The notes under the pieces: model-generated | What the model was told of the DNA's origin: nothing | What the model saw: only the letters and a program-made list of their open reading frames with translations | Databases searched by the model: none | Source of the DNA: an uncultured Latescibacterota bacterium | GTDB taxonomy: Bacteria; Latescibacterota; UBA2968 | Assembly: GCA_951812755.1 (NCBI GenBank) | Contig: OX638329.1 | Span: forward strand, 1,659,339-1,723,338 | Direction: 5' to 3' | Length of the DNA stretch: 64,000 nt | Made by a program: the position numbers and the translations under genes | Part shown: positions 28,842 to 39,950 of the stretch, piece by piece | Layout: each line of letters begins with the position of its first letter | Position numbering within the stretch: the first letter of the stretch is position 1

Positions 28842-31628
28842 TTAGTATTCATAACTTATGCCAAGCGAAAGGGAGCGCCCGATTTTGTATTCTCGGAAAA
28901 CGCCTTCCTTTTGCTTAAAGAGTACTTTGCTGTCGAGCACGTTTTTCGTCGATACCTTCAATGCGAAGTGACCGAACTTTTTCTTTATATTGAAGTCAAG
29001 TTGATGCCGGGGTTGTTCAAAAACATCGGGCAACCCCTGTGCGCCTACTTCGCTGATCCGCCTGCCAAATACATTGTAGAGCAAGTTGGCTTGAAACTCT
29101 TGATTGAGTTTGTCGTAGCCGAGGGTTACGTTGACTGCGTAAGGAGATTGGCCCTGAAGCGCGCGTTCGTTGGATGTCTGCACACCAATGTCGGGATTGA
29201 TTTCAATCTGCGATTTGACCAGTGTGATATTGGTGTTGATGGATAGTGGTTCAAGGGATGGGGATAGTATGTCGAGGCGGCGCCGAAATTCAAATTCGAT
29301 ACCGTAGTTTGTTGCTGCTTTGGCATTTTGAAATGTGACGCTGAGTTGTGCGGTGGGGCGAATGATTTGCTCAATGGGATCGTGGAATTTTTTGTAGAAA
29401 GCACTAATCGCCACCAGTTCGCCCAGGCGCGGAAACATTTCGAATCGGAAATCAAAATTGTCGATGGAACTGCGCTGGAGTTCGGGATTGCCAGAAACTG
29501 CCCGCCCGCCGATAAAGTCCGTAAATTCAAAAGGCGCGAGTTCGCGAAAATCCGGACGCGCCAGTGTGCGCGAATAAGCCGTACGGAAATTGGTGTGGTC
29601 ATTTAGCTTATAGACCAGATTGAGTCCGGGCAGGAGATCTGTGTTGTCCAGGGTCACTTCGATAGGGTCAACAGTTGTGCTAAAAGGATCAAAGGATGTA
29701 AGCTCCTGTTTGGATTGCTCAACGCGCAGCCCGCCTACAAAACGCCATTGGCCCGATAACTGGAGGTCGGTCATCGCGTAAGCTGCCCGGGTGGTCTGTG
29801 AGGCACTGTAGTTATCGACATTGCGGGTGGTTTCGCGCAGTTCAAAGCGGCCGGGCGCGATATTGTCTGAAATAAAAATTTCTTCGGGGTCGAGTGTCAG
29901 GTCAATATGTCGCTGGATGCCGCTGGATTGTTCAAAGCGAAATCGGCGGGCGTCAAAGGTGCGGTCTTTGGAGAGCGTTTTTCCACCCAGTTTAATTTTA
30001 GAAGAGAGGCTATTGAAACCCGCAAAGGGAATTGTCCAATCAATTTTGCCACTTTGAGCATTGTCAACAAGGTCAAAGAAGAAGCGGCTGCCGCTTTGCG
30101 TGATGTCAAAAAAGGTCCAATTGCCATTGCGGTCTTCGTAGAGTACTTCGCGGTTATCGGGTTCGTCGCGCGTGGCTTTGGACAAACTGTACAACCAATC
30201 GATATTGGAATTGAGAATGTGATGCTCTCCCGACAGTTGTCCCGTGAAAATACCGCGCTCGACAAATCGCAAGCGGAAGTCGCGCAAGTCAGTGCCCCGG
30301 TCGGAATTGTAACCGGTGTACGTGCGCGCCTCGTTGTCGGTGTTGCGATTAAAGAGGGTTTTTAAGCTGATTTTGTGGAGCGGAGACATCCGCAGACTGC
30401 TGTTGAACAATAGGCCCCACAGAATGTTGTTGGTTGTGCTGTTTACTTCATATGAGGTAAAAGGCGTGAGTATTTGTTCGCCCGATGCATCAGCAGTTAT
30501 GCGGAAGGAGTTCCAGTTTTCACTTCTGTTGTTAAAGCTGTTGTCATAAGTAAATGAGAATACATAACCGAGTTCCCGTTCGCTTCCGCCAATGGCATTG
30601 CCAATGCTGATGCTATAGCCCTGATTGACCGGCGCGCTTCTGGTTTTGGGCTGCCATACGTTAGCAAAGGCCTGTCCAAATTGCTGGATTTCTTCAGAGG
30701 AAAATCCGATTTCTGGGGTAAAACGCCCACTCTTGCGCACTGGCTCCTCAGCGGCTTGAGTTTTGATCTGTTCGGGCAGAGAACGCGTGCCGTCATCCAC
30801 ACCCAAAAAGTCCCAGGAGCCTCCATCGTAGGTCTGAATATCTTTGAAACTGGTTTGGCTGTGATATCCGGCTGATGTGGAAACCGAAAATGTAAATTCA
30901 CTGGGAAAATCGCGGGTTTTGATCTGTACGGAGCCGCCTGAAAAATCTCCCGGTTGATCGGGGGAGAAGGTTTTGGATACCTGGATATTTTCCAGAAGGC
31001 CAGCGGGGAAGATGTCCATGGGTACAACGCGTTTGTTTGGCTCGGGGCTGGGAATATCTGCGCCATTGACCTGCGTGTTGCTGTAGCGTTCGCCCAGGCC
31101 GCGCACGTACACGAATTTATCTACAATGGTGATTCCCGTTACGCGCTTGAGTGCGTCGCCCGCATCGGAAGACGAGGAGCGACTCATCAATTCGGCACTG
31201 ATGCCGTCCGTGACTACGGGTGCTTTTTGCTGTATGCCAAGCATCGATACTTCGCTGTCTTGTACGGCTCTGGCCGTGACGACTATTTCATCTGCCTGCA
31301 TGGCTTCGGGGGGTAGTGATATATTGAGTGATGCGGGGTCGTCGGTTTTGACTTCAACGCCGGTGACTGTTTTAGTGGCGTAGGAGATGTAGCTAAATTC
31401 GACGTTGTGTATGCCTATTGGTGCCGTGAGGACAAAGCGACCATCGAGGTCGGTGGAGGTGCCATACATTGGTACGCCAGTTTCATCTTTGATGACGATG
31501 TTGGTGCCGATGAGCGGTTCTCCTGTTTCTGCATCCACGACAACACCCTGGATTTTACCCATGTCCTGTGCCTGGATTGAAATGCTGGTGAAAGTAAGGG
31601 CAAAAAAGAGCAATAATATTCTTTTCAT
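28842..31628 (-). CDS. TonB-dependent outer-membrane receptor
   Basis: About 928 residues. The true start is ATG 31628, behind GAAAGGAT and directly followed by a signal peptide; the longer open frame includes promoter elements. Residues about 24-105 form a carboxypeptidase-regulatory-like domain (GVVVDAETGEPLIGTNIVI), then a plug with VYVRGLGERYSNTQVNG and a beta-barrel ending in an aromatic residue (ISYEY). Pho-box-like units lie 90-130 bases upstream on the minus strand, so the receptor is predicted to import a phosphorus-bearing ligand across the outer membrane when phosphate is short (inference). Ligand unknown. Confidence 0.85.
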   Translation of the reverse strand: MKRILLLFFALTFTSISIQAQDMGKIQGVVVDAETGEPLIGTNIVIKDETGVPMYGTSTDLDGRFVLTAPIGIHNVEFSYISYATKTVTGVEVKTDDPASLNISLPPEAMQADEIVVTARAVQDSEVSMLGIQQKAPVVTDGISAELMSRSSSSDAGDALKRVTGITIVDKFVYVRGLGERYSNTQVNGADIPSPEPNKRVVPMDIFPAGLLENIQVSKTFSPDQPGDFSGGSVQIKTRDFPSEFTFSVSTSAGYHSQTSFKDIQTYDGGSWDFLGVDDGTRSLPEQIKTQAAEEPVRKSGRFTPEIGFSSEEIQQFGQAFANVWQPKTRSAPVNQGYSISIGNAIGGSERELGYVFSFTYDNSFNNRSENWNSFRITADASGEQILTPFTSYEVNSTTNNILWGLLFNSSLRMSPLHKISLKTLFNRNTDNEARTYTGYNSDRGTDLRDFRLRFVERGIFTGQLSGEHHILNSNIDWLYSLSKATRDEPDNREVLYEDRNGNWTFFDITQSGSRFFFDLVDNAQSGKIDWTIPFAGFNSLSSKIKLGGKTLSKDRTFDARRFRFEQSSGIQRHIDLTLDPEEIFISDNIAPGRFELRETTRNVDNYSASQTTRAAYAMTDLQLSGQWRFVGGLRVEQSKQELTSFDPFSTTVDPIEVTLDNTDLLPGLNLVYKLNDHTNFRTAYSRTLARPDFRELAPFEFTDFIGGRAVSGNPELQRSSIDNFDFRFEMFPRLGELVAISAFYKKFHDPIEQIIRPTAQLSVTFQNAKAATNYGIEFEFRRRLDILSPSLEPLSINTNITLVKSQIEINPDIGVQTSNERALQGQSPYAVNVTLGYDKLNQEFQANLLYNVFGRRISEVGAQGLPDVFEQPRHQLDFNIKKKFGHFALKVSTKNVLDSKVLFKQKEGVFREYKIGRSLSLGISYEY

Positions 31629-31706
31629 GCGACGTATCCTTTCGGCGTGTGTAAACTGTTGTTCCGCGACAGGAGTTAAGCACCCTAAATAATTTTGTGT
31701 GAATTT

Positions 31707-31757
31707 AGTTTGACTATGTTGAGTTAGAGTTACAAATGAGTTACGATTTTGCGACAA
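31707..31757 (-). promoter_or_regulatory. Pho-box array upstream of TonB receptor
   Basis: Read on the minus strand, TTGTCGC (31757-31751), TCGTAAC (31746-31740), TTGTAAC (31735-31729) and ACTCAAC (31724-31718) follow each other at exact 11-base steps. CATAGT at 31718-31713, ten bases after the TTGTAAC unit, would serve as the -10 element. This is the geometry of PhoB-controlled promoters. Confidence 0.75.
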
Positions 31758-31865: not shown

Positions 31866-31927
31866 TTGTAACACAACTGTCACAATTCTGTGACCAAAGC
31901 GTAACCGTTTTGGAGCTAATTTGTAAC
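31866..31927 (+). promoter_or_regulatory. Six-unit Pho-box array upstream of porin
   Basis: Units TTGTAAC (31866), CTGTCAC (31877), CTGTGAC (31888), GCGTAAC (31899), TTGGAGC (31910) and TTGTAAC (31921) start at exact 11-base intervals, each separated by an AT-rich 4-base spacer in most cases. CTAATT at 31916 could be a -10 element ten bases after the fourth unit. Confidence 0.8.
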
Positions 31928-31987
31928 ATTAGGGCGATGTCTTGTCGCGGAGAACGTCGTTTATCCACCAATTCGGAGGGAGAGCAC

Positions 31988-32941
31988 ATGCGCCTTTGTA
32001 AAACAATTTGGGGAATACTGTTGTGTTTGGGTTTCGTATTGGCGGGACGGAGTGAAGCTGTAGATACCAGGCTCCAGGGTGTTATGTTTGCCGATTATTA
32101 TATTGTCAGAGGAAATGGGGAAGAAGAGAATGGCTTTCGGTTTCGACGTATTTATCTCACCCATGACCTGAAGTGGAGTGATGCTTTTTCTGGACGGGTT
32201 CGGCTGGAAGCCAAAGATGCGGGATTTAATAGTGGTCAAAAAATAGAACCTTTTGTAAAGCACGCGTATTTGCGCTATCGCAAAAATGGGCACGCGATCT
32301 ATATGGGGCTGTCGGGTACGCCAACATGGAACGTATCGGAGTCTGTTTGGGGTTATCGCTCGGTCGAGAAGACCCTCATGGATCGAAAAAAAATTGCTTC
32401 TTCGGCTGATATAGGCATTGCATATCGCGCGCGATTGGATGAAGCTGGAAAGTTAAATGCCCAGATTATGCTGGCCAATGGCAGCGGGCAGCAGTCCGAG
32501 TCAGATCACTACAAAAAAATTTACGGTCTGTTGCATTTTGAGCCTGGTACTCTGAATGTGACGACTTATGTAGATTGGGAAAAACGCCCAGATAATCGAG
32601 ACCGCACGACTTTTGCTACGTTTATCGGGTTAAAAAAGAAAAATTTTCACGGTGGATTGGAAGGATTTGTGCAATGGCGCAACCATACCGCACAGACGCG
32701 GGGGCTTTCACTGTTCGGCGCAGGACAGTTTAGCGAAAAGATAAAGGTGTTTGCTCGCGGCGATTTCTTTGATCCAGACGATAAATCTGACGACGATGGG
32801 GAATATTGTTTTCTCGGAGGGCTTGACATTGAGCCGGTAAAGGATATTCACATTATGCCCAATGTGATGGCCACAAATTTTCAGGCTCCAGATGTAGATA
32901 TTGAGATGATCCCCCGGCTAACGCTATATGTTAAGTTTTGA
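31988..32941 (+). CDS. Outer-membrane porin, probably phosphate-induced
   Basis: 317 residues starting at ATG 31988 behind GGAGGGAG; upstream codons of the same frame lie in the Pho-box region and are leader. A signal peptide (about 1-24) is followed by alternating beta-strand sequence rich in aromatic residues and ending in Phe, the usual outer-membrane barrel signature. Charged loops contain several Lys and Arg. Position between Pho boxes and pstS suggests an OprP/OprO-like phosphate or polyphosphate porin. The family match to those is by context rather than by clear sequence motif. Its stop codon directly precedes the target repeat of a miniature element. Confidence 0.72.
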   Translation: MRLCKTIWGILLCLGFVLAGRSEAVDTRLQGVMFADYYIVRGNGEEENGFRFRRIYLTHDLKWSDAFSGRVRLEAKDAGFNSGQKIEPFVKHAYLRYRKNGHAIYMGLSGTPTWNVSESVWGYRSVEKTLMDRKKIASSADIGIAYRARLDEAGKLNAQIMLANGSGQQSESDHYKKIYGLLHFEPGTLNVTTYVDWEKRPDNRDRTTFATFIGLKKKNFHGGLEGFVQWRNHTAQTRGLSLFGAGQFSEKIKVFARGDFFDPDDKSDDDGEYCFLGGLDIEPVKDIHIMPNVMATNFQAPDVDIEMIPRLTLYVKF

Positions 32942-33133: not shown

Positions 33134-33173
33134 TTATCACATAGATGTCGTGCTTTTGTCACATAATTGTAAC
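33134..33173 (+). promoter_or_regulatory. Pho-box array upstream of pstS
   Basis: Units TTATCAC (33134), ATGTCGT (33145), TTGTCAC (33156) and TTGTAAC (33167) are spaced at exactly 11 bases. TTTATT at 33184-33189 sits ten bases after the last unit, as a -10 element should in a PhoB-type promoter. The first unit lies within the 12-base repeat duplicated by the adjacent miniature element. Confidence 0.8.
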
Positions 33174-33226
33174 GCGATACAGGTTTATTTTTTGTATCCT
33201 ATATTGCATAACACAAGGGAGATTGA

Positions 33227-34186: not shown

Positions 34187-34308
34187 TTAGCCACTCAAAT
34201 ACCCAACTTCAAAGGTGAGACGTTAGACATTAGAGGGCTACCCAGCTTCCATTCCAGAAGCGAGAGAAAGTCCCCCGCCCGTGTCTCTTACGTTTCACCC
34301 TTTGTGTT

Positions 34309-34320
34309 TCACCTCCTTAT
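34309..34320 (+). other. Anti-Shine-Dalgarno-like sequence before pstC
   Basis: The bases before the pstC start read TCACCTCCTTAT, identical to the tail of a typical 16S rRNA rather than complementary to it. No ordinary ribosome-binding site is visible, so initiation may be inefficient or depend on another mechanism. It may be chance. Confidence 0.4.
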
Positions 34321-34321
34321 T

Positions 34322-36562
34322 ATGGCATTTTCATTGGAACCAACATCAAAGCGACAATTGCCCGGCATCACGCCAAAGGCACGTCTGATGGACCGCGTTG
34401 GGCAGTGGGTGATCACTGCTGGGGGCATCGGGGTGATCCTGTCGGTGCTGGGCATTTTTCTTTTTGTGTTGATGGAGGCCTATCCCCTGTTTTTGAAGCC
34501 GAGTGTGTCCAGGGTGCATACCTTTGATTTTTCGCACCGTCAGCCCGTCCTGTGTACGGGGGTGGATCCCTATCAAGCTGTGATGTTTGTCGTGCATGAA
34601 GCGGGGATTGATTTTGTGGATATGACTACAAAGTCTGTGACAAAGTCTGTGTATCCCCCTGAACTACAGGGACGGCGTATTCGATCGGCTTATCGCGCTC
34701 TGGATAATAAGCATGTTGGCCTGGGTCTGGACGACGGTACAATGCTGGGCTGCCGCGTAAATTTTGTCGTGGATTACGATGCGGAGGGAAAGCGGATTGT
34801 GACACCGTCTTTTTCTGTTGAGTCGGCGATGGATTTAACTGATGAAGCTCTTGTGCATCTCGTATTTCGGCACGATGGAAAATCTCGAGGCACAGTACTT
34901 GGCATCGCGGATTCCGGGCAACTCGTTTTGGGAATTTCCGACAGGCAGCGCGGTCTTTTAGGTGATGGCAAAACGACTATTCATACATACGATTTGACCG
35001 CTGAGATTAAAGGGCGCGCCAGGGTGGGTGCTGTGGCGAAATCGGGACGCTATGTTCTGGTGGGCACAGATCGCGGTGAAGTATTTCGATGGGAAATTGG
35101 ACGGGCGAGTTCCAATCCCAGAATGTTGGATTATTTTCGGGTCTCCGATCAGGAGGTGACTGCGCTGGATTTTGTGCTGGGTGATGTATCTCTCCTCATG
35201 GGTGATGTGGGTGGTCGTGTGTCTGTATGGATGCCCGTCAGGATGGGTGAAGGCGACAATAAAAAGATGTTCAAAAAGATCCACGATTTGCGATCTCATC
35301 CAGCGGCGGTGACGGCACTGGCGTCGTCTGCTCGCGATAAACAGTTTTTATCGAGCGATGTATCGGGGATGGTTGCGTTGCATCACATGACATCGGAACA
35401 AACGTTTTTTCAATTGCCTGTTGATGGCTCCATCCAAACCATGGCTTTCGCGCCAAAAGCAAATGGCTTTTTGACAGTGAGTAAGTCGGGACAAATAACG
35501 GATTTCGACCTCCAAAATCCACATCCCGAAGTAACGTTACAAACGCTTTTTGGGAAAGTATGGTACGAGGGATATACGGAGCCTCAATACGTGTGGCAAT
35601 CTACGGGTGGATCAGATGATTTTGAGCCTAAATTGAGTATCGTACCCCTGGTATTTGGCACATTTAAGGGTACGATTTACGCTATGTTATTCGCGCTGCC
35701 TCTGGCTATTCTGGCAGCGATTTACACATCGGAATTTGCCTCTCCCAACGTGCGCAATCTGGTCAAACCCGTGGTGGAGTTGATGGCCTCGCTTCCCAGC
35801 GTGATTTTGGGCTTTTTAGCTGGTTTGTGGTTGGCACCGCTTCTGGATACGAGAATTGTTGGTGCGTTATTGTTATTACCCTGTGTACCCGTTGTCGTGG
35901 TGATATGCGCGTGGGCGTGGGGGCAGGTGTCCGAAGATTTTGCACGCAGAGTACCGGGTCACTTGATTCTAACTTTGTTGACTGGCATTGTGTTGTTCGC
36001 GCTCTTTCTGTCGTTTGCACTCGGTCCAGCAGCCGAATCGCTTTTGTTTGATGGCAATTTTCAAAGCTGGCTGCTCGGCACAACGGGTACGCGCTACGAT
36101 CAACGCAATTGTCTCGTGGTGGGGTTTGCCATGGGATTTGCCGTAGTACCCATTATTTACACGATCAGCGAAGATGCCCTGTCAAGTGTGCCACAGCATT
36201 TGCGCGCTGGGTCCCTCGCGCTTGGCGCAACGCCCTGGCAGACGGCTATCCGCGTGGTGCTGCCCACAGCGAGCCCGGGTATTTTTTCCGCGACTATGAT
36301 CGGTTTTGGCCGCGCTGTGGGCGAAACGATGATTGTGTTGATGGCCACGGGCAATACTCCAATTCTGGATTGGACCATTTTTAACGGCATGCGCACGATG
36401 TCGGCCAATATCGCCGTGGAGATACCCGAAGCACCCCATGAAGGTACGCTTTATCGCGTGTTGTTTTTAACAGGGGTTTTGCTGGCGGCGATTACTTTTT
36501 TTGTGAATACGCTGGCAGAAGTGGTGCGGCAGCGTTTGCGCGAAAAGTATAGCAGGATTTGA
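34322..36562 (+). CDS. pstC: Phosphate ABC transporter permease PstC, long form
   Basis: About 746 residues, more than twice a basic PstC. After one membrane helix (about 29-50) comes a soluble domain of about 350 residues with WD-like beta-propeller character (for example GRYVLVGTDRGEVFRWEIG and KQFLSSDVSGMVALHHM). From about residue 440 the permease proper begins with GTIYAMLFALPLAILAAIYTSEFA and contains the coupling loop ALGATPWQTAIRVVLPTASPGI. Long PstC forms are also known in gammaproteobacteria such as Pseudomonas. The start ATG 34322 is preferred to GTG 34304. It pairs with PstA to form the channel. Confidence 0.88.
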   Translation: MAFSLEPTSKRQLPGITPKARLMDRVGQWVITAGGIGVILSVLGIFLFVLMEAYPLFLKPSVSRVHTFDFSHRQPVLCTGVDPYQAVMFVVHEAGIDFVDMTTKSVTKSVYPPELQGRRIRSAYRALDNKHVGLGLDDGTMLGCRVNFVVDYDAEGKRIVTPSFSVESAMDLTDEALVHLVFRHDGKSRGTVLGIADSGQLVLGISDRQRGLLGDGKTTIHTYDLTAEIKGRARVGAVAKSGRYVLVGTDRGEVFRWEIGRASSNPRMLDYFRVSDQEVTALDFVLGDVSLLMGDVGGRVSVWMPVRMGEGDNKKMFKKIHDLRSHPAAVTALASSARDKQFLSSDVSGMVALHHMTSEQTFFQLPVDGSIQTMAFAPKANGFLTVSKSGQITDFDLQNPHPEVTLQTLFGKVWYEGYTEPQYVWQSTGGSDDFEPKLSIVPLVFGTFKGTIYAMLFALPLAILAAIYTSEFASPNVRNLVKPVVELMASLPSVILGFLAGLWLAPLLDTRIVGALLLLPCVPVVVVICAWAWGQVSEDFARRVPGHLILTLLTGIVLFALFLSFALGPAAESLLFDGNFQSWLLGTTGTRYDQRNCLVVGFAMGFAVVPIIYTISEDALSSVPQHLRAGSLALGATPWQTAIRVVLPTASPGIFSATMIGFGRAVGETMIVLMATGNTPILDWTIFNGMRTMSANIAVEIPEAPHEGTLYRVLFLTGVLLAAITFFVNTLAEVVRQRLREKYSRI

Positions 36563-39056: not shown

Positions 39057-39734
39057 ATGGAGCGTACTCTTGACCAGCATCTCGATCACCTCAAAGGTGA
39101 GTTGTTGAAGATGGGCAGTGCGGTGGAAGAGTCGATTGAACAGGCAGTACAATCGCTTGTAGAACGCGACAATCACCTCGCCGATGTGGTTGAAGAAGGT
39201 GGGCATTACATTGACGATTGGGAAGTGGCAATAGAAGAAGAATGTTTGAAGTTGCTGGCTGTACAGCAACCGGTGGCTGGCGATTTGCGCCTGGTGGCGG
39301 GTATTATGAAGATCAATTACGATCTCGAGCGCATCAATGATCAGGCGGTCAATATCGCGCAACGCGCCCGTTTGCTCAATCAGATGCCGCAATTGAAACC
39401 GCTGATCGATATTCCTCGGATGGCCGAGTTGGCACGGGGTATGGTCAGGGATGCACTGGATGCTTTTGTCAATCGAGATGTGGAATTGGCCAATAAGGTG
39501 CGTAAAATTGACGATACAATGGATGCATTGCGCGATCAAATTTTCCGCGAGTTGTTGACGTACTTAAACACGGGTGTTCCCGCGACTGTAGATCAGGCAA
39601 TTTTGCTCATTCTCGTGTCCCGACATTTGGAGCGCATTGGCGATCATTCATCCAATATTGCCGAAAATGCCGTCTATCTCGTAGAAGGGCGCATTGTGAG
39701 ACACCAACAGGAGGAATTGCGCGGAGGCGCGTAA
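39057..39734 (+). CDS. phoU: Phosphate regulator PhoU
   Basis: About 225 residues of two three-helix bundles, each with the PhoU metal-ligand pattern (for example VAGIMKINYDLERINDQAVNIA and LVSRHLERIGDHSSNIAENAVY). The start is ATG 39057, with CGGAGTG upstream and the typical first residues MERTLDQHLDHLKGELLKMG; a TTG at 39033 inside pstB is unlikely. PhoU links the transporter to the PhoR/PhoB two-component system and represses the regulon when phosphate is plentiful. phoR and phoB are not in the window. Confidence 0.93.
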   Translation: MERTLDQHLDHLKGELLKMGSAVEESIEQAVQSLVERDNHLADVVEEGGHYIDDWEVAIEEECLKLLAVQQPVAGDLRLVAGIMKINYDLERINDQAVNIAQRARLLNQMPQLKPLIDIPRMAELARGMVRDALDAFVNRDVELANKVRKIDDTMDALRDQIFRELLTYLNTGVPATVDQAILLILVSRHLERIGDHSSNIAENAVYLVEGRIVRHQQEELRGGA

Positions 39735-39743
39735 TTAACGGTT

Positions 39744-39788
39744 TTGTCGCATAAACGACACGCGATTGTAACACGGCAATGATATTAT
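39744..39788 (+). promoter_or_regulatory. Pho-box promoter behind phoU
   Basis: TTGTCGC (39744), ACGACAC (39755) and TTGTAAC (39766) stand at 11-base intervals, and TATTAT at 39783-39788 follows ten bases after the last unit. This is the same geometry as at pstS, but no protein gene begins before the next terminator. Confidence 0.6.
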
Positions 39789-39794
39789 ACCTAA

Positions 39795-39850
39795 AGCACG
39801 ACGTATTCTCCCTCTTGGGAACCGGCCCGCGACCCGGTTCCCATTTTTTT
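39795..39850 (+). ncRNA. Candidate Pho-controlled small RNA
   Basis: Transcription from the predicted Pho promoter would start near 39795 and meet a strong terminator within about 55 bases, or a second one within about 85. No reading frame with a ribosome-binding site fits in this stretch. The simplest reading is a short regulatory RNA, or only an efficient 3' end for the phoU transcript. No homologue can be checked here. Confidence 0.4.
39817..39850 (+). terminator. Rho-independent terminator after phoU
   Basis: GGGAACCGG (39817-39825) pairs with CCGGTTCCC (39834-39842) and is followed by eight T residues. Confidence 0.92.
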
Positions 39851-39851
39851 T

Positions 39852-39878
39852 GCCCCGAGTTTGAATTCGGGGCTTTTT
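39852..39878 (+). terminator. Second terminator after phoU
   Basis: GCCCCGA (39852-39858) pairs with TCGGGGC (39867-39873) and a TTTTT run follows. Two terminators back to back insulate the Pst block from the next genes. Confidence 0.85.
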
Positions 39879-39950
39879 CGTTGACCCAAAACTATTACCT
39901 GTGTATTTTTTGGAAATACTATATATTATAACAATTAAAAAATAAGGTGG

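Follow-up and report, generated by a model that had tools for sequence, protein, structure and literature searches.

A candidate Pho-driven small RNA behind phoU and its possible outer-membrane targets in a Latescibacterota genome

The pst operon (pstS-pstC-pstA-pstB-phoU) of an uncultured Latescibacterota bacterium is followed by a short unit with a Pho-type promoter and two intrinsic terminators, which we propose encodes a small RNA (sRNA). The unit sits between phoU and a Nudix gene. We analyzed it in a window of 64,000 nucleotides (GenBank assembly GCA_951812755.1, contig OX638329.1, positions 1,659,339 to 1,723,338 of the forward strand), and coordinates below count from the first letter of that window. 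The 6.53-Mb source genome is complete; the records of its relatives read Candidatus Latescibacterota, in some cases Gemmatimonadota. A functional short RNA driven by PhoB from near position 39795 is likely. We give about even odds to the fuller proposal, in which this RNA would act by base pairing, independently of Hfq, and temper the Pho response at the outer membrane. An initial annotation of this DNA had suggested a phosphate-responsive RNA that feeds back on the pst operon. The feature is real and that outline right, while the feedback target moves from the pst operon to neighboring outer-membrane genes.

In the proposed mechanism, a PhoB-type regulator would bind the 11-bp units of the promoter upon phosphate starvation and bring RNA polymerase to a TATTAT box. 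Transcription would start at about 39795 and stop at terminator 1 near 39851, with a backup stop near 39878. The product would be an RNA of about 57 nt, with a 21-nt single-stranded 5′ end followed by the terminator hairpin. PhoB would switch on pstS, a TonB-dependent receptor, a porin, and the sRNA alike. The 5′ end of the sRNA (ACGACGUAUUCUCCCUC) would then pair with the ribosome-binding sites of the TonB-receptor and porin mRNAs, limiting their translation in an incoherent feed-forward loop. That PhoB, the sRNA, and both targets form such a loop within one 8-kb locus is a tentative proposal, somewhat short of probable.

A Pho-type promoter and a predicted short transcript behind phoU

The features of the unit and its borders are as follows.

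39057 to 39734, + strand: phoU, last gene of pstS-pstC-pstA-pstB-phoU (Pfam PhoU)
39744 to 39776, + strand: three 11-bp Pho-type units, TTGTCGCATAA (39744-39754), ACGACACGCGA (degenerate, 39755-39765), and TTGTAACACGG (39766-39776), from the sequence and position weight matrix scans
39783 to 39788, + strand: −10 hexamer TATTAT, 10 nt past TTGTAAC
39795 to 39851, + strand: predicted sRNA of about 57 nt, made up of an unpaired 5′ part (39795-39815), a terminator hairpin (39816-39843), and a U tract; folds in nine genomes
39799 to 39815, + strand: candidate pairing region, ACGACGUAUUCUCCCUC and neighbors, predicted to pair with the TonB-receptor and porin start regions
39816 to 39851, + strand: intrinsic terminator 1, the sRNA end; pairs kept in 9 of 9 sequences, including that of genome G008
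39852 to 39878, + strand: intrinsic terminator 2, with compensatory changes
39881 to 39909, + strand: TTGACC-N17-TATTTT, a promoter-like sequence ahead of the Nudix gene, retained in relatives

The site has the makeup of a Pho box, with direct 11-bp repeats in place of a −35 element and a fixed distance to the −10. Units 1 and 3 are good, and unit 2 is poor, fitting the TTGTNAC core at three of six fixed positions. Both promoter elements named in the initial annotation, the three units at 11-base spacing and the TATTAT at the right distance, are present, the middle unit in degenerate form. The spacing from TTGTAAC to the −10 is that of the pstS, TonB-receptor, and porin promoters in the window. 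At pstS the layout is TTGTAAC-N10-TTTATT, and its GTTTATT is invariant or nearly so among the 11 genomes of the genus. The predicted +1, near 39795, is deduced from this promoter spacing.

We scanned 4.13 million positions (2.06 Mb, both strands) for comparable promoters. An independent unit matrix, trained on promoters of two other genera alone, was combined with a generic −10. With the −10 counted, the site behind phoU scores highest of all positions; on boxes alone it comes fourth, the higher scores going to two of the window's other Pho promoters and one further site. A second matrix was derived from the window's three other Pho promoters. Only four sites, the one behind phoU among them, reach the score of that site with this matrix, and all four fall in this locus. 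A Pho pattern with a 12-base period was also considered and rejected, as its spacing is wrong and its matches do not rise above control level. Judged by its sequence, the promoter behind phoU is well supported.

Two strong terminators were expected after the start, and both were found. Hairpin 1 spans 39816-39843 and is followed by eight T; hairpin 2 spans 39852-39873 and is followed by five T. The segment folds at −35.3 kcal/mol (z −3.7), and the first 21 or so nucleotides of the sRNA are predicted to be single-stranded in nine folds. All 19 stem pairs of the two hairpins form in every one of nine aligned sequences, and hairpin 2 has changes on both sides at four pairs. Terminator 1 probably also ends the pst operon.

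The initial annotation held that no coding frame fits here. An ATG frame of 50 codons is in fact open at 39779-39931, and the claim stands in the sense that this frame is judged not to be coding, because its start precedes both the −10 and the predicted +1 and because indels in the T run shift the frame in relatives. The unit has, at the level of sequence, what an sRNA gene calls for: its own promoter, an intrinsic terminator, short length, and no coding content. A short transcript is well supported on these features. We infer its expression, its response to phosphate, its pairing, and the direction of its effect.

Conservation in the genus and the PhoB orthologue

The genus comparison covered 11 genomes (G000-G010). 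The segment occurs in single copy behind phoU in nine of them (G000-G004, G006, G007, G009, and G010); in G005 the contig stops within phoU, which puts the segment out of view. A dispersed repeat or mobile element was rejected, as each genome holds one copy. Two blocks of 21 nt, 39757-39777 and 39793-39813, are invariant across the nine genomes, against a baseline in which about 64% of third-codon positions, and 50% of positions in the following spacer, do not vary. Pairwise divergence is 0 in unit 3 and 0.04 in the RNA 5′ part, compared with 0.14 at phoU third positions, 0.20 in the spacer leading to the Nudix gene, and 0.35 just upstream of the unit. The low divergence of the RNA 5′ part relative to its flanks indicates that the unpaired 5′ end is also under selection, not the promoter and terminators alone. 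Purifying selection on the Pho boxes and the RNA 5′ end is well supported by this comparison. Conservation in relatives, which had been set beforehand as decisive, was borne out within the genus and did not extend beyond it: nothing similar to the segment turned up in other genera.

The gene for the PhoB-type regulator lies away from the locus, at C1:6461355-6462050. Its orthologue (L334), at 93-97% identity, is present in 10 of the 11 genus genomes and is missing only in G008 (OY282377.1, L327), a one-contig genome. G008 is also the sole member seen to lack the boxes, the −10, and the RNA 5′ end, and a recent loss of the Pho regulator is possible there. Both hairpins remain without the promoter, which suggests that they also serve as operon terminators. 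In G008 only a truncated remnant of the TonB receptor is left, and the porin start has lost its pairing with the RNA. The Pho-dependent short RNA that was originally suggested is well supported by the promoter match, by the selection on boxes and 5′ end, by hairpins that persist in 9 of 9 sequences, and by the joint absence with PhoB in G008.

Contig C5 of G012, from another genus of the same family, encodes a PhoB homologue of 69% identity some 4 kb ahead of pstS. In family f4, phoU is directly followed by a response regulator. Within the operon, the N-terminal region of PstC (34304-36562) is long and gives WD40/beta-propeller-like matches under the cut-off.

Candidate targets and alternative explanations

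A scan for the same promoter architecture found divergent Pho-type promoters between the TonB-dependent receptor gene (minus strand, ATG at 31628) and the porin gene (plus strand, ATG at 31988). The porin is identified by a weak, sub-threshold Porin_O_P match. The elements of this region are listed here.

31630 to 31640, − strand: candidate sRNA target AGGAUACGUCG within the ribosome-binding site of the TonB receptor; 11 contiguous pairs with the sRNA, one G-U, −14.3 kcal/mol
31725 to 31757, − strand: Pho units of the TonB-receptor promoter, TTGTCGCAAAA/TCGTAACTCAT/TTGTAACTCTA
31866 to 31931, + strand: porin promoter, six 11-bp Pho-type units in register, one degenerate
31949 to 31960, + strand: second porin site GGAGAACGUCGU, close to where the mRNA is predicted to begin; −17.3 kcal/mol from 12 pairs interrupted by a 2-nt bulge
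31974 to 31983, + strand: candidate sRNA target GGAGGGAGAG within the ribosome-binding site of the porin; 10 contiguous pairs, −15.6 kcal/mol
33134 to 33177, + strand: Pho units of the pstS promoter

Two relatives differ in this region. On contig C228 of G009 (L329) the pstS and porin frames are split in a way that resembles assembly frameshifts. On contig C273 of G005 (L328) the TonB receptor adjoins pstS and the porin is absent between them, a local gene loss or rearrangement.

Both promoters were found by scan before any pairing was scored. Targets were ranked among 1588 gene starts, taken from 2.06 Mb in stretches and called by a simple rule of open reading frame plus Shine-Dalgarno sequence, with no trained gene finder. 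The exact scoring window was picked after the TonB match was seen, and results are given for two scoring models. In the first model the porin ranks 7 and pstS 106; the TonB receptor ranks 25, or third when scoring is limited to the first 15 nt of the RNA. Dinucleotide shuffles of the RNA gave p values of 0.002 for the porin and 0.0007 for the TonB receptor, and none of 3000 shuffled RNAs reached the summed score of porin, TonB receptor, and pstS. In the gapped energy model the summed score of the three Pho genes has a shuffle p of 0.002. The TonB-receptor site GAAAGGATACGTCG is identical in five genomes while the surrounding leader differs, and the second porin site keeps ACGUCGU in genomes without a TonB receptor, save G004. 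Pairing with both leaders would depend on the sRNA bases ACGACGUAUUCUCCC.

The idea of feedback on the pst operon itself fared poorly. The pstS start region offers 7 nt of complementarity at its Shine-Dalgarno sequence AGGGAGA, little different from many Shine-Dalgarno sequences. We rejected pstS as the main target on its rank and on cross-species energies that are unspecific. A 10-nt pstS match in G002 and G004 that resembles covariation was discounted, since the change is common to both genomes. The TonB receptor and porin, beside the pst operon, are suggested by the complementarity to be better candidates, and the sRNA may act as a brake on both. Overall, its function and targets are moderately supported.

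Several observations weigh against the proposed mechanism. The middle Pho unit behind phoU is degenerate. Support for the targets is statistical, and ranks vary by energy model: in the gapped model they fall to 26 for the porin, 153 for the TonB receptor, and 658 for pstS, of 1588. The porin match is partly that of a Shine-Dalgarno sequence to a C/U-rich stretch. Five genomes that carry the RNA (G001, G003, G004, G007, and G010) have no TonB receptor, and G004 among them keeps the RNA without a good porin site as well. Finally, G008 is a single and imperfect natural experiment, because it is the most diverged member of the genus and because its pstS promoter still carries Pho-like boxes although no PhoB orthologue was found.

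A second explanation is that the same PhoB-driven sRNA has its main job elsewhere, in pstS feedback or on other mRNAs, and that chance accounts in part for its matches to the TonB receptor and the porin. The 5′ end is invariant even where the TonB receptor is missing, the pstS Shine-Dalgarno sequence does form 7 bp, and several unrelated gene starts outpair the porin. However, pstS does not stand out in either model, the joint match to the Pho genes exceeds that of shuffled RNAs, and a search of the genomes for a near-complete 19-nt complement of the RNA 5′ end gave only coding-region matches. We regard this explanation as unlikely, though it deserves to be taken seriously.

A third explanation holds that the promoter and terminators serve transcription only, with the hairpins ending the pst operon and the Pho-activated promoter giving some limited read-through to the Nudix gene. 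In that case the conserved 5′ part would be a leader, an attenuator, or a further DNA site for PhoB or another protein. The persistence of the hairpins in G008 without the promoter fits this. In addition, the reverse complement of 39794-39804 (ACGTCGTGCTT) is identical at 10 of 11 positions to unit 2 of pstS (ATGTCGTGCTT), so a reversed protein-binding DNA site at the transcription start is conceivable. Yet the invariance runs on through ATTCTCCCT, past such a site. Two terminators separate the Pho promoter from the Nudix gene, which has its own conserved promoter-like TTGACC-N17-TATTTT past terminator 2. No antiterminator is visible, because the 5′ part is predicted to be unpaired, and with the separate promoter-like site this does not describe a Nudix leader or attenuator. 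A purely transcriptional role is improbable in our estimate. Least probable is a duplicated Pho promoter with a functionless transcript, a fossil or by-product: the unit is absent outside the genus and hence evolutionarily young, but a 21-nt stretch spanning the RNA 5′ end shows no variation across nine genomes whose flanks diverge, which is unexpected for a by-product.

Relation to known small RNAs

The segment matches no Rfam family above its gathering score. Weak same-strand matches to RyhB (RF00057; 21.2 bits against a gathering score of 55) and mmgR/suhB (RF00519; 20.5 bits against 41) are far too low for membership. Hfq (PF17209) was found in 0 of 13 genomes, by a search that does recover the protein from E. 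coli, B. subtilis, and other bacteria; the genome-borne Hfq that an Hfq-dependent sRNA calls for was not found. Because of this, the sRNA would work without Hfq.

In E. coli, porin-repressing sRNAs of the MicA/RybB type are driven by sigma-E and depend on Hfq. The candidate resembles them in its single-stranded 5′ end, its Rho-independent terminator, and its predicted pairing at or near the ribosome-binding sites of outer-membrane mRNAs. It differs in its PhoB-type control and in a lineage without detectable Hfq; a sequence relation was checked via Rfam only. MalH of E. coli is a processing product from the 3′ end of malEFG that acts on porin expression (PMC8081044). Like MalH, the RNA behind phoU would arise from the tail of a nutrient-uptake operon and act on outer-membrane porins; unlike MalH, it is predicted to have a dedicated Pho-type promoter and to be independent of Hfq.

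Phosphate has been linked to sRNAs elsewhere. EsrL of E. coli (PMID 36626577, as described in PMC12351708 and PMC10294691) is reported to be repressed by PhoB at low phosphate, and a genome-wide study in E. coli did not detect PhoB binding upstream of EsrL. Both EsrL and the phoU-3′ sRNA are put under PhoB control, but the RNAs are unrelated and EsrL is repressed. Sinorhizobium meliloti sRNAs shift in level under phosphate stress by RNA sequencing, and several interact with Hfq (PMC8829014). They are phosphate-responsive as proposed here, but belong to a different phylum. In the open-licence papers searched, no sRNA was described that is driven by a Pho box of its own from the tail of a pst operon, and no small RNA was reported for Latescibacterota, an uncultured phylum; the earlier remark, too, was that no described example was known in this lineage.

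What is new here, and suggestive, is an invariant RNA 5′ end with predicted complementarity to the starts of the TonB-receptor (11 bp) and porin (10 bp) genes. This complementarity pinpoints the exact bases to change in a test, and one relative, from which promoter, seed, and PhoB are absent together, offers a useful natural experiment. If the proposal is true, Pho control in these bacteria extends to tuning the outer membrane at the RNA level, and does so without Hfq.
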